The notes under the pieces were generated by a model. It was given only the letters and a program-made list of their open reading frames with translations, ran no database searches and was not told the origin of the DNA. Source: Acidimicrobiales bacterium (GTDB lineage Bacteria; Actinomycetota; Acidimicrobiia; Acidimicrobiales; Aldehydirespiratoraceae). From it: 64,000 nt of DNA. Positions 21,094 to 55,664 of the stretch are shown here, piece after piece (the first letter of the stretch is position 1; every line of letters starts with the position of its first letter). The position numbers and the translations under genes are program-made. The DNA lies in the NCBI GenBank assembly GCA_029263195.1, contig JAJCXX010000016.1:1-64000 (forward strand), read 5' to 3'.

Positions 21094-21846
21094 TCAGCCG
21101 AGCTCGACAAGGAAGTCGAGCCCGAACAGTCGTGCAAGTCGTTGAATCTGGACCGTGAGCCATGTGAGGCGATCGAGCGTGAGAATCGCTCCGAAGATCG
21201 CCAGAGATAGAGCAGAGAACCATGTCACGCCACGCATGTGCCGCTTCATGACGTTGAGAAGGTTGGTGGCCCGACCAAATGCCAGGCCCGTGATCATGAA
21301 CGGAAGGCCGAGTCCGAGGGTGTATACCCCCAGAAGGAGCGCTCCTCGACTGGCCCTTCCGTCGGCGGCGGCGACGGCCAACACCGAGGTGAGCACCGGT
21401 CCGATACACGGGGTCCAGCCGAAGCCGAAAGCAACACCGGCCACGGGTGGGGCGAAATGACCGTATTGAGACACTTGTGGATGGAAACGGGCCTCTCGGT
21501 AGAGCCAAGGAGCCTGCAAATACATGGAACCGAGAACGAACAGCCCCATGGACAGAACCATCAGACCCGAGACTCGAGTCAGGAGCTGCTGATTGTCGAT
21601 GAAGACCGAACCGATCGAGGTGGCTCCCATTCCCAGGAGAACGAAGACCGAACCGAATCCGAGAATGAAAAGTGAGGTGTCGCGAGCGATACGGCCCATA
21701 TTGGCCGTCCCGCCCTCTTCCAGCTCGCTCACCTCCAGACCGGTGACCAGCGAGAGATAACCAGGAATTATCGGCAGCACGCACGGTGAAAGAAACGAGA
21801 TCACACCCGCCCCGAAGGCGGCATAGAACGTTACGTCGGGGCTCAC
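21094..21846 (-). CDS. ccdA: CcdA/DsbD-type thiol-redox membrane transporter
   Basis: 250 residues with six membrane segments. The two redox Cys lie in helix motifs FLSPCVLPIIPGY and FGWTPCIGPVL. CcdA passes reducing power from cytosolic thioredoxin to an outer thioredoxin, here the TlpA-like protein encoded next. The GTG start overlaps the TGA of the upstream zinc-finger gene (GTGA). Confidence 0.94.
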   Translation of the reverse strand: MSPDVTFYAAFGAGVISFLSPCVLPIIPGYLSLVTGLEVSELEEGGTANMGRIARDTSLFILGFGSVFVLLGMGATSIGSVFIDNQQLLTRVSGLMVLSMGLFVLGSMYLQAPWLYREARFHPQVSQYGHFAPPVAGVAFGFGWTPCIGPVLTSVLAVAAADGRASRGALLLGVYTLGLGLPFMITGLAFGRATNLLNVMKRHMRGVTWFSALSLAIFGAILTLDRLTWLTVQIQRLARLFGLDFLVELG

Positions 21847-22151
21847 TGCGAGCTCAGCCGATCGGCCTCAGTGTGCAAACGGACGACAGCGTCGGGCACT
21901 GCCGCACCGCCCCTGACCCGCCTGATCGATGCCTTCATCTTCAGCAGTGCCGCGACCTCACCGGCGCAGTCCTCGCAACCCTCCACGTGGGCATCGACAC
22001 AACGAGCGCGGCGTTCACCGAGCTCGTCGTCGATCCATCTCTCGAGAGAGTGCCCCCATCGGGCACGGTGCAACCGTCCCATGCGCAGCCGAAACCCACC
22101 ACGGCCCGTGGCAATTCCCGCCCATCCGTGCCCTGTCACCTTATTGACCAT
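21843..22151 (-). CDS. Soluble HxxxCxxC zinc-finger protein (anti-sigma-like)
   Basis: About 102 residues from ATG 22151; ATG 22082 (79 residues) and a start at 22217 are alternatives. The central motif CVDAHVEGCEDC has the C-x3-H-x3-C-x2-C spacing of zinc anti-sigma factors. A helical segment, LKMKASIRRVRGG, follows. No membrane span is seen. It is co-translated with ccdA (4-nt overlap) and stands head-to-head with the ECF sigma gene, 23 bp away. A second anti-sigma-like protein follows that sigma gene, so the role of this one is open. Confidence 0.7.
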   Translation of the reverse strand: MVNKVTGHGWAGIATGRGGFRLRMGRLHRARWGHSLERWIDDELGERRARCVDAHVEGCEDCAGEVAALLKMKASIRRVRGGAAVPDAVVRLHTEADRLSSQ

Positions 22152-22156
22152 TGACG

Positions 22157-22166
22157 TTGCTAGTTT
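22157..22166. promoter_or_regulatory. Shared divergent -10 elements (zinc-finger gene / ECF sigma)
   Basis: TTGCTAGTTT holds TAGTTT for the plus strand (8 nt before GTG 22175) and TAGCAA for the minus strand (5 nt before ATG 22151). The hexamers share the TA at 22161-22162. The minus element lacks the final T, so this is the weakest of the three such sites. Confidence 0.45.
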
Positions 22167-22174
22167 GGCGGGTC

Positions 22175-22735
22175 GTGGGCGAGCAATTGACTGATGAGAT
22201 GGTGCAGAAGGCGGCATTCGATCAATACGTCGTGCCCGAAATCGAGGTTCTCTACCGGGTGGCGCGGTCGATCACACGCAACCCCACCGATGCCGAAGAC
22301 CTGGTCCAGGACACCATGCTCCGGGCCTACCGCGCGGTTGGTCGCTTCGATGGGCGTCATCCTCGGGCCTGGCTGCTCACCATTATGCGCAACGCCCAGA
22401 TCAATCGGGTGCGGCGTCGCCGACCCGAACTCATGAGAGACCCCGATGCCACCATGGAACGCGTAGCGGCCGAAGATTCCGGCGACGACGGACCCGAGGC
22501 AACCGTTCTCGACCGTGGCTACAACGCTGCTCTCGAAACCGCGTTCGACTCGCTTCCCGAGAAGTTCCGAACCGTGGTCGAGCTAGTCGATGTGCAGGGG
22601 CTCGCCTACCAGGAGACGGCCGACATTCTCGGAGTGCCTGTCGGCACCATCATGAGCCGATTACACCGAGCCCGTTCGCGCTTGCGTAAGCACCTCGAGT
22701 CGAGCGGGGCCTACGTCGATGGTCGACCGACATGA
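22175..22735 (+). CDS. ECF sigma factor (SigR/SigH-like)
   Basis: 186 residues from GTG 22175. Region 2 is FDQYVVPEIEVLYRVARSI through NPTDAEDLVQDTMLRAYRAV, RPRAWLLTIMRN-type HPRAWLLTIMRNAQINRVR follows, and region 4 is DSLPEKFRTVVELVDVQGLA with GTIMSRLHRARSRLRKHL. The order sigma then zinc anti-sigma, plus neighbouring thiol-redox genes, fits the SigR/RsrA disulfide-stress type. The likely leaderless start has TAGTTT 8 nt upstream. Confidence 0.9.
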   Translation: MGEQLTDEMVQKAAFDQYVVPEIEVLYRVARSITRNPTDAEDLVQDTMLRAYRAVGRFDGRHPRAWLLTIMRNAQINRVRRRRPELMRDPDATMERVAAEDSGDDGPEATVLDRGYNAALETAFDSLPEKFRTVVELVDVQGLAYQETADILGVPVGTIMSRLHRARSRLRKHLESSGAYVDGRPT

Positions 22736-38273: not shown

Positions 38274-38780
38274 TCAGGTTGGTCGACCCAGCAGCGACCC
38301 GGACATCAGCGACCCGTCGAATCGGCCGAGAGAACAGATGACTCGGCGATCTCCTTCGTTCCAGGAGTCCTCATCGGGGACGTAGGCCGACAGGCCGACC
38401 GTCAGGTCGGTGAGGTTGCCGTCGAGGGCGTCGGATGCCGCGCCGAAGCACAGCAACTGGGCCCGATCCAGCAGTTGGGACACGCCCGGCCAATCCGTCG
38501 ACCCGTCGTCGTCGAGTTCCACCAGGGCGGCCACCTGTGAGTCGTGGAGCTCAGCGCAGGGCACACCCTGCACCAGTTGGGTCGAGCCTTCCGCAGAGTC
38601 GATGAAGCAGTCCCCTACTTGCAGTCGCTGGGTGCCGACCTCGCCACCTTCGGTGATCGCTCCCGACAGCGGATCACGTCCGGCACCATCGGTGTTGGCC
38701 GGCGAGCCGCACGCCGACAACGCCAGCACGCTCAAGGCCACCAGGACCGACCCGCGTCCGGGCGGTCGCCGGAAGCTCAC
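38274..38780 (-). CDS. Lipoprotein with septum-formation-like domain
   Basis: 168 residues from GTG 38780, which overlaps the upstream TGA (GTGA). Signal VLVALSVLALSACGS has a lipobox with Cys. The outer domain starts LQVGDCFIDSAEG, then QGVPCAELHDSQVAAL, and carries Cys pairs as in the actinobacterial 'septum formation' (DUF4190-linked) domain. The function is not established. Longer frames upstream are rejected. Confidence 0.7.
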   Translation of the reverse strand: MSFRRPPGRGSVLVALSVLALSACGSPANTDGAGRDPLSGAITEGGEVGTQRLQVGDCFIDSAEGSTQLVQGVPCAELHDSQVAALVELDDDGSTDWPGVSQLLDRAQLLCFGAASDALDGNLTDLTVGLSAYVPDEDSWNEGDRRVICSLGRFDGSLMSGSLLGRPT

Positions 38781-40303
38781 CTCCGGAACCGCGCCATCGA
38801 GTCCTCCAGTCCTCCCGGGCGGCTGCCCGACAGCCATGCCGCGCGCTGCTGATCGATCACCGCCGCTACCTCTTGATCGCTCGGTTCGTCGCACTCCAGT
38901 CCGGCACCGGCGCCAATACGGCGAAGCCCGATGTCGGCGGCAAGGCAAATGGCCGCGAGTTCGGCACTGATCTCAGGGCCTCTTGCCCCACCGAAGGGGA
39001 CATCGGTGAACGTTCTTGTCGCCTCGGCGACCGTTTGGCGCGCCTGTTTGAATCGGGCTTGATCAAGATCACCCCGGACGGGCCATCCCCGATCCACACA
39101 GGCATCGAAAACTGCCGTGCCATTGAGACACGCCATCCCGATGCTCTCGCCAACAGAACCGAGTCGGTCGAGCAGCGCTCCGGTTCCAGGGGTGGCACTT
39201 GTGAGAGCGTCGATCACCGGGCCGGGATCGAAATCCTCGGCGGCGACGCCGTTCCAGGACGCTACGCCACACCTGACAATCGAGGGCAGTGAGATCGCCA
39301 ATGGTTGCCAGTGACCGTTGTCGCCCCAGTCGGTCAGGAGAATTCCCAGAGCGCTGTGGCGCACTCCGACCTCAATGGCGTCGGCGATGTTGGCGGCGGC
39401 GTTGAGATTGCGGCCGATCAGTGAGTTCCAGCTACCTGTGCCCGGTGAGATCCAGAATGGCTCTCCCGACGTCACGAAGAGTCTCGCGTGGGACTCGAAT
39501 CCGAGATCGGCATCATCGGGGATTCCGAGAAACTCCCGAGAATTCTGATCGAGTGCCTCCATCCAGGTGTCCGGGCCGGGAGCCTCGTAGTTCCAGACGA
39601 TGCCCACCGCGTCGTCGGGGATATCGGCCATCAACGACATGTCGCGACGAAAGAGATCGCCCCAGAACATGACTTCGTGGCCGGAGTCCACCAAAGGGTC
39701 GATGATTCGGCGCAGGTGATCCAAATAGACCCGGTCTCGACCCTGATCTGCGACGATCGCCGCCGACTTCCCTAGCCCCAGTTCGAATGGTTCGTCGCCA
39801 CCGATGTGCACGCGAGAGTGTCGAACCGATGAGGCGATCTCCTCGGCCAGTGTCACTGCGAACGCTGCATTGTCAGCAGTGGGGGCCAAGGAACCCGGAG
39901 GCTGATGTCCGTCTCCGAAGACACTCGTGTAGCCATCGGGGCATTCGGCCATCGACCGATATCTGTCGTGACACAGCCACCGGCCCATGTGGCCGAATCC
40001 GTTCATGTTCGCGACCAGATCGATCCCCGCACCGGTGCAGCGCTGATCGAGCCAGGCCATGTCGGAGGGGGTGAGCGGCGACGCCTTGGCCCACACATCG
40101 TCGTGCCCCGCGTAGGCGAAGGTGTGCTCCACGTATAGCTGCAGTTCGTTGTAGCGAAGAGCGGACAGGATTTCGATCAGCCAACCGAGCGTTTCGAGCG
40201 TGGGAACACGATCGCGCGACACATCGAGCATGAAGCCTCGCCGGTCCATCGCAGGAGTCGGAGTCTCGAAGAATCGATCGACCCTGGAGCCCATTTCGTG
40301 CAT
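38777..40303 (-). CDS. Glycoside hydrolase family 20-like beta-N-acetylhexosaminidase
   Basis: 508 residues with no signal peptide. The barrel shows DRRGFMLDVSRDRVPTLETL at the start, YVEHTFAYAGHDDVWA, and the Asp-Glu pair in VHIGGDEPFELG typical of substrate-assisted GH20 enzymes. It lacks the small N-terminal beta domain. It may recycle cell-wall or chitin sugars inside the cell. Leaderless start likely (TAGCGT 6 nt before ATG). Met4 is an alternative. Confidence 0.8.
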   Translation of the reverse strand: MHEMGSRVDRFFETPTPAMDRRGFMLDVSRDRVPTLETLGWLIEILSALRYNELQLYVEHTFAYAGHDDVWAKASPLTPSDMAWLDQRCTGAGIDLVANMNGFGHMGRWLCHDRYRSMAECPDGYTSVFGDGHQPPGSLAPTADNAAFAVTLAEEIASSVRHSRVHIGGDEPFELGLGKSAAIVADQGRDRVYLDHLRRIIDPLVDSGHEVMFWGDLFRRDMSLMADIPDDAVGIVWNYEAPGPDTWMEALDQNSREFLGIPDDADLGFESHARLFVTSGEPFWISPGTGSWNSLIGRNLNAAANIADAIEVGVRHSALGILLTDWGDNGHWQPLAISLPSIVRCGVASWNGVAAEDFDPGPVIDALTSATPGTGALLDRLGSVGESIGMACLNGTAVFDACVDRGWPVRGDLDQARFKQARQTVAEATRTFTDVPFGGARGPEISAELAAICLAADIGLRRIGAGAGLECDEPSDQEVAAVIDQQRAAWLSGSRPGGLEDSMARFRR

Positions 40304-40309
40304 CGCCCG

Positions 40310-40319
40310 ACGCTACCCT
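40310..40319. promoter_or_regulatory. Shared divergent -10 elements (GH20 gene / mycothione reductase)
   Basis: ACGCTACCCT fits AnnnTAnnnT. Plus-strand TACCCT is 6 nt before GTG 40326; minus-strand TAGCGT is 6 nt before ATG 40303. They share the TA at 40314-40315. Only 22 bp lie between the two start codons. Confidence 0.6.
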
Positions 40320-40325
40320 GCGCCC

Positions 40326-41684
40326 GTGCGTCAATTCGACCTGATGATCATCGGGGCCGGGTCGGGAAACTCGATCATCGGTCCCCAACACGACAATCTC
40401 GACATCGCAATGATCGAGCGGGGCAAGTTCGGCGGAACCTGCATGAATGTCGGGTGCATCCCCTCCAAGATGTTCGTCTACAGCGCTCTCGTGGCCGAGA
40501 TGGCGACCCATGGACCCGCTCTCGGTGTCGACACCCGATTCGAGGGTGCCGATTGGCCCGCTATCCGCGACCGCGTGTTCGGTCGCATCGATCCGATCGC
40601 CGCGGCCGGCGACGCCTACCGCGAGGGACTGCCCAACGTCACCGTCTATCGCGACTCCGCTCGTTTCGTGGGCCCCAAGCAGGTCGCCGTCGGCGGGGAG
40701 GTCATCACCGCTGAGAAGATTGTCATCGCCGCCGGGGCCCGCCCCATGGTCCCCGAAACCCCCGGCCTTTCCACTGTCGGCTACCACACCTCCGACACGA
40801 TCATGCGTCTCGACGAACTGCCCGAGAGATTGCTGGTGCTCGGCGGCGGCTATATCGCCACCGAACTGGGCAATGTCTTCGGCTCCTTCGGTTCGAACGT
40901 CACGTTTCTCGTGCGCAGCAACGCTTTGCTCCGCAACGAAGACGACGACGTGAGCAAACGGTTCACCGAGATCTACCGCCACAGGTTCGATGTTCGTTGC
41001 ATGACCCAGGTACTGGCCGCCCGCCGCGAGGGCGACGAGATCGTCCTCGAGGTCTCAGAGGGCGGCGTCCACGGAGAGGTGCGCGGCGACCAGTTGTTGG
41101 TGGCCACCGGTCGAGTCCCCAACGCCGACGACCTCAATGTCGTGGCCGGTGGCATCGAGGTCAACTCCCGTGGCTACATACCAACCGACGACCAGATGCA
41201 GACCAACGTTCCAGGAGTCTGGGCACTCGGCGACATCACCAATCCGTTGCAGCTCAAGCATGTCGCCAACTACGAAGCCAAGATCGTGGCCCACAACGTC
41301 AGCTACCCCGACGATCCCCGAACGATCGACGGCCGGCTCGTTCCTCACGCCGTCTTCGGTCATCCGCAGGTCGCGAGTGTCGGCCTGACCGAACGTGAGT
41401 GTCATCAGTTGGACATCCGCCATGTCTCACACATCCAAGCGTTCAGCTCGGCTGCCTACGGCTGGGCCATGGAGGACACACGAAGTTTCGTGAAGGTGAT
41501 CGCCGATCCCGACACACGACTGCTGCTGGGCGTCCACATCATTGGCCCGCAGGCCTCCACACTCATCCAGCAGTTGGTCCAGGCCATGGCGTTCGGGCAA
41601 ACCGTCGATGAGATCGCCACCGGCCAATACTGGGTCCATCCGGCCCTGCCCGAGGTTCTGGAGCAGGCTCTACTCGGGCTCTGA
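40326..41684 (+). CDS. mtr: Mycothione reductase
   Basis: 452-residue FAD/NADPH disulfide reductase. It reduces mycothiol disulfide, the actinobacterial counterpart of glutathione disulfide. FAD site MIIGAGSGNSIIG; redox Cys pair in GGTCMNVGCIPSKMF; NADPH region LLVLGGGYIATELGN; the interface QYWVHPALPEVLEQALL, with His, is typical of Mtr. Start GTG 40326 is the only one that places the FAD motif correctly. Its 3' end overlaps the convergent ligase gene by 15 bp. Confidence 0.93.
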   Translation: MRQFDLMIIGAGSGNSIIGPQHDNLDIAMIERGKFGGTCMNVGCIPSKMFVYSALVAEMATHGPALGVDTRFEGADWPAIRDRVFGRIDPIAAAGDAYREGLPNVTVYRDSARFVGPKQVAVGGEVITAEKIVIAAGARPMVPETPGLSTVGYHTSDTIMRLDELPERLLVLGGGYIATELGNVFGSFGSNVTFLVRSNALLRNEDDDVSKRFTEIYRHRFDVRCMTQVLAARREGDEIVLEVSEGGVHGEVRGDQLLVATGRVPNADDLNVVAGGIEVNSRGYIPTDDQMQTNVPGVWALGDITNPLQLKHVANYEAKIVAHNVSYPDDPRTIDGRLVPHAVFGHPQVASVGLTERECHQLDIRHVSHIQAFSSAAYGWAMEDTRSFVKVIADPDTRLLLGVHIIGPQASTLIQQLVQAMAFGQTVDEIATGQYWVHPALPEVLEQALLGL

Positions 41685-54603: not shown

Positions 54604-55212
54604 CTAGTTGACTGCCGACCTACCGTCGCGGAGAGCCTGTCGAGCTAGCGGCACATACTGGGCGGCCGACAGGTAGCTGTAGATCAGCGAAGGAACGGCG
54701 ATGATCCAGCCGGCCACCCTGAACCAGTCGTTGATGCCCACATCGGACGCTCCGGCCAACAAGAACGGGAACGCGAAGTAGAGGCCGAAGGTCGCGACCT
54801 TGCCCCACCACGTGACGTCGATGCGCCGGGCGCCCAGCGCTCCCAACACGACTCCGGCCACCGCGACCAGCACCTCGCGGGCCAGTGCCGCCACCACCAG
54901 CCACCATGGAACCGATCCGTCGATGCCAACCGCCAACATTCCTGTGATCAGCACGACCCGATCGGTGACGGGGTCGATGAGCTTGCCCATCTCGCTCACG
55001 ACGTTGAACCGGCGGGCCCACCAGCCGTCGACCCAGTCGGTGGCTCCGAGAATCCCCCACAGCCAGGCTGCTTCGTATCGCTGGTCCTGAGAGAACAGGA
55101 GCCAGAGAAACACCGGAACTCCCGCCAGCCTCAGCACCGAGATCAGGTTGGGCACGGTGAGGATGCGATCCTCGAACACTCCGAGTTGCCGCGGTGGGTT
55201 CTCCTCGTCCAT
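54604..55212 (-). CDS. CDP-alcohol phosphatidyltransferase (PgsA-like)
   Basis: 202 residues from ATG 55212. The CDP-alcohol motif is present in spread form: DWVDGWWARRFNVVSEMGKL then IDPVTDR (D-x2-D-G-x2-A-R...G-x3-D-x3-D). About six membrane segments. It makes a phospholipid such as phosphatidylglycerol phosphate or an inositol phosphate lipid. Position near gcvH/garA recalls pgsA2 in mycobacteria. TAGGCT lies 7 nt upstream of the ATG. Confidence 0.9.
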   Translation of the reverse strand: MDEENPPRQLGVFEDRILTVPNLISVLRLAGVPVFLWLLFSQDQRYEAAWLWGILGATDWVDGWWARRFNVVSEMGKLIDPVTDRVVLITGMLAVGIDGSVPWWLVVAALAREVLVAVAGVVLGALGARRIDVTWWGKVATFGLYFAFPFLLAGASDVGINDWFRVAGWIIAVPSLIYSYLSAAQYVPLARQALRDGRSAVN

Positions 55213-55219
55213 CAGCGTC

Positions 55220-55229
55220 AGCCTACGAT
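55220..55229. promoter_or_regulatory. Shared divergent -10 elements (pgsA-like gene / HIT gene)
   Basis: AGCCTACGAT fits AnnnTAnnnT. Plus-strand TACGAT is 6 nt before GTG 55236; minus-strand TAGGCT is 7 nt before ATG 55212. They share TA at 55224-55225. The start codons are separated by 23 bp. Confidence 0.6.
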
Positions 55230-55235
55230 CTCTCC

Positions 55236-55664
55236 GTGCCAACAATCTTCACCAGAATCATCAACAGCGAATTGCCGGCCCGTTTCGTGTGGCAGGACAA
55301 CACCTGTGTGGCGTTCCTTCCCTTGGAGTTGTTGAACCGCGGTCACGTTCTCGTGGTTCCGCGCCTCGAAGTCGACCACTGGACCGATCTCCCTCCGGAT
55401 GTGGTTGGTCATCTCGCCACCGTGGCCCAGACCATCGGCAAAGCGCAACAAGAGGCCTTCAGCCCGGCGCGTATCGGCCTGATGATCGTCGGGTTCGACG
55501 TGCCGCACGTGCACATCCATGTGGTGCCGGTCGATGACCTCACACACTTCGACTTCTTGTCGGCCGACCGACACCCCGACCCCGGCGACCTCGATGAAGC
55601 TGCCCGGATGCTGCGCTCGGCACTTCGAGGCCAGGGAAACAGCGAGAGCATTCCCGCCGACTGA
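55236..55664 (+). CDS. HIT-family nucleotide hydrolase/transferase
   Basis: 142 residues from GTG 55236. Starts TIFTRIINSELPARFVW and has HIT motif VPHVHIHVVPVDD. Acts on dinucleoside polyphosphates or aminoacyl-/acyl-AMP forms. Convergent with the SRAP gene, 1 bp apart. No Shine-Dalgarno, leaderless-type -10. Confidence 0.92.
   Translation: MPTIFTRIINSELPARFVWQDNTCVAFLPLELLNRGHVLVVPRLEVDHWTDLPPDVVGHLATVAQTIGKAQQEAFSPARIGLMIVGFDVPHVHIHVVPVDDLTHFDFLSADRHPDPGDLDEAARMLRSALRGQGNSESIPAD

Follow-up and report, generated by a model that had tools for sequence, protein, structure and literature searches.

How can the 23 bp that separate two divergent start codons serve both genes? The question is raised by positions 55213-55235 of the window, a 64-kb stretch of DNA from an uncultured Acidimicrobiales bacterium (contig C16 of a metagenome-assembled genome of 3.63 Mb in 106 contigs). 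A sequence-only reading had proposed one symmetric promoter element for two leaderless genes, with the symmetry setting the length of the intergenic region. This proposal is supported by the positional preference of candidate -10 boxes, the excess of the symmetric motif, the distribution of gap lengths, and the conservation described below.

The pgsA/HIT intergenic region

The proposed bidirectional leaderless promoter, CAGCGTCAGCCTACGATCTCTCC, is flanked by ATG 55212 on the minus strand and GTG 55236 on the plus strand. The former starts the gene of a CDP-alcohol phosphatidyltransferase (54604-55212, minus strand; CDP-OH_P_transf, PF01066), for which the best NCBIfam match, ClsA/PgsA, is below the cut-off; for brevity it is called pgsA. 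The latter starts the gene of a HIT-domain protein (55236-55664, plus strand; PF01230). The region has the layout CAGCGTC + AGCCTACGAT + CTCTCC. Its conserved symmetric core AGCCTACGAT (55220-55229) has the form AnnnTAnnnT and thus reads as a TANNNT box on either strand. The candidate -10 box of the HIT gene is TACGAT (55224-55229, plus strand), 6 nt before the GTG, and that of the pgsA/clsA-like gene is TAGGCT (55220-55225, minus strand), 7 nt before the ATG; the two overlap at TA. The gap length, the boxes and both spacings are as initially read. No purine-rich Shine-Dalgarno sequence was found at the usual distance on either strand of the 23-bp gap, and no -35 element was identified for the proposed promoter.

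The divergent pair very probably shares one mirror-image promoter that starts both messages at the start codons. We consider it quite likely that the 23 bp are a single bidirectional promoter of the sigma-A type, belonging to the published class with 23 bp between transcription start sites (TSSs), with start codons at both +1 sites. RNA polymerase would bind the two TANNNT boxes, lying on opposite strands with the central TA in common, in either orientation and never in both at once. The RNAs of the two strands would start at a distance of about 23 bp, and both start codons would be at, or 1-2 nt from, the +1 sites. Because the start codons would coincide with the +1 sites, both mRNAs would be leaderless and would need no Shine-Dalgarno box, and the intergenic region would consist only of the 10-bp core and two spacers of 6-7 nt. 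The distance of 23 bp follows arithmetically from the sharing of TA. Since leaderless start codons fix the TSSs, gaps should range from 22 bp (spacings 6/6) to 24 bp; at the focal site the box positions predict TSSs 23-24 bp apart. We infer that transcription does proceed from these 5' ends and uses sigma-A; the opposing polymerases would exclude each other, and the gene pair would be co-expressed.

Predicted leaderless genes and symmetric motifs in the host genome

Genes were predicted from coding statistics and start-codon type only, that is, blindly with respect to motifs, in 2.38 Mb (66% of the genome; 2022 genes), and the start codons in all genome counts are such predictions. The same four start codons were selected at 55213-55235 and at a second site, 40304-40325. 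Where the upstream neighbour is divergent or opposite in some other way, TANNNT ends 6 nt before the start in 11.2% of genes, 7 nt in 6.5% and 8 nt in 3.5%, compared to about 0.4% at other spacings. Both focal genes, with spacings of 6 and 7 nt, carry this signature, which is known from leaderless actinobacterial genes (PMC3160421, PMC3898074).

The 2.38 Mb contain 313 divergent gene pairs, and a start-to-start gap of 20-25 bp is possible in 32 of them. AnnnTAnnnT with spacings of 5-8 nt was found in five of these 32, whereas the mean in shuffled sequences is 0.25 and none of 2000 shuffles reached five. The excess over shuffles in such gaps, which the sequence-only reading had itself proposed as a test, is thus observed, and it persists when the two sites from the window are removed (3 vs. 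0.25, P = 0.0015). Of the 15 alternative palindromes with this shape, none occurs more than once in the 32 eligible pairs. The remaining three motif-containing pairs are PhyH / beta-eliminating lyase (contig C17), PALP / S9 peptidase (C28), and a Fer2_2-MoCoBD protein / unknown protein (C69). The motif was rejected as a general explanation of short divergent gaps, as seven more pairs, whose motif-blind gaps measure 23-31 bp, lack it.

Two further sites in the window had been assigned the same layout. The first of them (40304-40325) is confirmed: it has a gap of 22 bp with the layout CGCCCG + ACGCTACCCT + GCGCCC, the core being at 40310-40319 with spacings 6/6. It separates the genes of a GH20-domain protein (38777-40303, minus strand) and mycothione reductase (40326-41684, plus strand; NF005884, above the cut-off). 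The core ACGCTACCCT recurs in two other genomes of the genus, and another genus has the variant AAGCTAGCCT. The other assignment, 22152-22174, does not stand: the gap between the genes of a zf-HC2 protein and an ECF sigma factor is indeed 23 bp, but the symmetric motif is absent. The plus strand has a box TAGTTT 8 nt before GTG 22175 of the sigma factor gene, whereas the minus strand reads TAGCAA. Genes of ECF sigma factors and zf-HC2 (anti-sigma-like) proteins are usually co-directional; here (21843-22735) they are divergent and 23 bp apart.

One may suppose that two ordinary leaderless genes simply happen to lie 22-23 bp apart, so that their boxes must share TA. Indeed, spacings of 6 nt and a gap of 22 bp do force the sharing, and the window sites were selected because they look symmetric. 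However, such gaps are over-represented among doubly leaderless pairs. TANNNT is present on both sides in 24 divergent pairs; four of them have gaps of 22-23 bp (Poisson P about 3e-4), and none has a gap of 1-21 or 24-36 bp.

Enrichment in the family and the phylum

The pattern CAY-N6-AnnnTAnnnT-N6-RTG has 177 matches in 51 genomes of the family, compared to 30 with N4 and 33 with N9 (Wilcoxon P 1e-8), and is thus about fivefold enriched at exactly the 6/6 spacing. The N9 control preserves the coding phase of N6; the reversed pattern was not used as the main control, since its TA becomes AT. N6 matches outnumber N9 matches in 43 genomes, and the opposite is observed in none. In 18 of the 30 family matches inspected as loci, open frames of at least 80 codons start on both sides; these loci include the pairs peptide deformylase / methyltransferase, Leu/Phe-tRNA transferase / methyltransferase, and TauD / ABC. 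In the phylum, 291 of 396 genomes have a match at 6/6 and 205 at 9/9, an excess weaker than that in the family because some members have a high background. The fivefold excess over a control in the same phase, together with the long conservation of the focal site, speaks against chance juxtaposition, which we regard as the least credible of the alternatives considered here.

A leaderless layout of the 18-bp class was considered as the main form and rejected, with 54 matches in the family vs. 17 at the control spacing and no match in the genus of the window. A leaderless divergent site of this class, CACGGGCTTAGGCTAACGGCGTG, is near-identical in about ten genomes of genus g2 (e.g. G004:C30:262345-262367). 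Avoidance of A at -6, which would create the 18-bp class, was also dismissed, as it largely reflects the fact that A rarely follows that T in general (6.8% in controls). In several genomes of family f37 of the phylum, an inverted sequence GTTGAGACTAGTTTCAAC is repeated near start codons and is possibly an operator (e.g. G088:C1:2675950-2676005).

Conservation of the pgsA/HIT element

When 41 sequences are anchored at the HIT start, each of the columns -17 to -6 contains 1.2-1.7 bits, whereas the flanking columns -26 to -18 and -5 to -1 mostly contain 0.1-0.7 bits. The former columns define a conserved 12-bp island CAGCCTACGATC (55219-55230). About 35 Acidimicrobiia genomes retain it at a constant spacing from HIT, between variable flanks, although the orthologous sites are not independent of one another.

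The spacing to HIT is 6 nt in 32 of the 35 loci with the core. That to pgsA is mostly 7 nt (16 of 35 loci) or 8 nt (11 loci), and four loci have 15-27 nt. This drift suggests that the pgsA mRNA is probably not leaderless in every orthologue. A stronger form of this view is that the promoter and the leaderless start belong to HIT alone, the box facing pgsA being a by-product and pgsA itself relying mostly on an mRNA with a leader or on expression from another place. It would account for the difference between the nearly invariant and the varying spacing, but not for the similar degree of conservation of TAGGCT and TACGAT, nor for the candidate boxes retained or acquired by pgsA at the separated loci (below). 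We therefore consider it improbable, somewhat less so than coincidence.

All six variable positions of the core are conserved as well, which is more than TANNNT on two strands requires, and this full conservation of the interior goes beyond what -10 recognition alone explains. One possibility is that the 12 bp are an operator of a transcription factor regulating one or both genes, the resemblance to -10 boxes being secondary. Indeed, conservation extends over the whole 12 bp and takes in the nnn triplets, which are hardly constrained in the ordinary TANNNT boxes of this genome. On the other hand, the 12-mer CAGCCTACGATC occurs once in the 2.38 Mb, so there is no regulon in this part of the genome, although an operator would be expected in several copies. 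The element keeps a constant spacing of 6 nt to the HIT start, as a -10 box would. Finally, in two genomes of another family (G173 and G119) the HIT site is AGCGTACGCT at 6/6, with a different interior and A..TA..T retained; in G173 the GTG opposite HIT coincides precisely with residue 1 of the pgsA match. Together with the independent decay of single halves described in the next section, these observations make an operator unlikely, though it is the strongest competitor of the shared promoter.

Separated loci and the base at -16

At two loci (L201 and L192) the starts of HIT and pgsA are further apart and the element is duplicated, one copy being 6 nt from HIT and another 8 nt from pgsA. L201 also has a middle copy, from which the TA has disappeared. 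The HIT-side copy of L192 retains TACGAT but has lost the T(-7) facing pgsA. The same holds for the HIT-side copy of a third locus (L188), where pgsA has TAGGGT 6 nt from its ATG. Following separation, each start retains a box, and only the half that is no longer needed has decayed in two lineages. The duplications with the promoter element between HIT and pgsA are in tandem (L192:9840-9990, repeat of about 37 bp; L201:9870-9990, with one broken middle copy).

The partner base A(-16) is the outermost A of the symmetric motif. Among orthologues of mycothione reductase, A(-16) is present in all four that have a divergent start at 22 bp, and in none of the nine leaderless ones lacking such a start, which have C or G instead (Fisher P 0.0014, relatedness ignored). 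The divergent partners differ among the four. The same symmetric element, upstream of mycothione reductase in L253, L254, L168 and L272, faces GH20, a 166-codon frame, or a weakly periplasmic-binding-like protein.

Genome-wide, A(-16) was found in 4 of 117 leaderless genes (spacings 6-8) with a co-directional upstream gene; the effect is smaller with these spacings than with spacing 6 only, where the count is 0 of 63. With a divergent upstream gene, the counts are 5 of 12 in short gaps and 11 of 117 in long gaps. The difference between co-directional genes and short divergent gaps is significant (P 3e-4), whereas that between co-directional genes and long divergent gaps (4/117 vs. 11/117) is not. 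In other Acidimicrobiia loci, none of 68 co-directional cases has A(-16).

The mycothione reductase orthologues, the split pgsA/HIT loci and the depletion in co-directional contexts all fit a scheme to which we give even chances. In leaderless-rich actinobacteria, one base may set the direction of a promoter: given A(-16), the TANNNT box would also fire backwards, and selection would keep this A if a divergent leaderless start is about 22 bp away and remove it if the upstream gene is co-directional.

Relation to known promoters

In bacterial bidirectional promoters, the symmetry of the -10 element allows RNA polymerase to bind either way, and opposing polymerases exclude each other; common distances between TSSs are 18, 10 and 23 bp, the 23-bp class having been published in E. 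coli (PMC12825309). The divergent TSSs of such promoters lie 7-25 bp apart on opposite strands. On the chromosome, these promoters are over-represented in the intergenic regions of divergent genes (PMC10268837). The element described here resembles the promoters of Warman, Grainger and colleagues in its overlapping symmetric -10 boxes on opposite strands and in the predicted TSS distance of 23 bp. Unlike them, it would have start codons on both +1 sites, so that the promoter is the whole intergenic region. Moreover, the 18-bp class dominates among those promoters, whereas the 23-bp form is commoner among leaderless pairs of this family (177 over a background of about 30, compared to 54 over about 17).

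Actinobacterial leaderless promoters, in M. tuberculosis and others, have TANNNT about 12 bp before ATG or GTG and do not need a -35 element (PMC3898074, PMC3160421). The box-to-start spacing and the ATG/GTG starts are similar here, but the boxes treated in those papers are one-directional, and here they are on both strands. In M. tuberculosis, divergent promoters often lie close together, as in prpD/Rv1129c, where both genes are leaderless (PMC3898074); the part of that paper dealing with divergent promoters does not describe a shared -10 box.

The principle of the symmetric promoter is already known; what seems to be new is its leaderless form, the conservation of this form, and a signature of direction that resides in one base. 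The shared promoter would be an extreme and conserved version of an established principle, found several times per genome. With +1 tied to the start codon in leaderless genes, both TSSs can be read off the start codons, so that bidirectional promoters may be counted across thousands of genomes that lack transcript data. As far as can be judged from sequence alone, symmetric promoters can be a conserved, selected means of expressing gene pairs, beyond being a source of stray antisense RNA, and the result yields a testable one-base rule for promoter direction.
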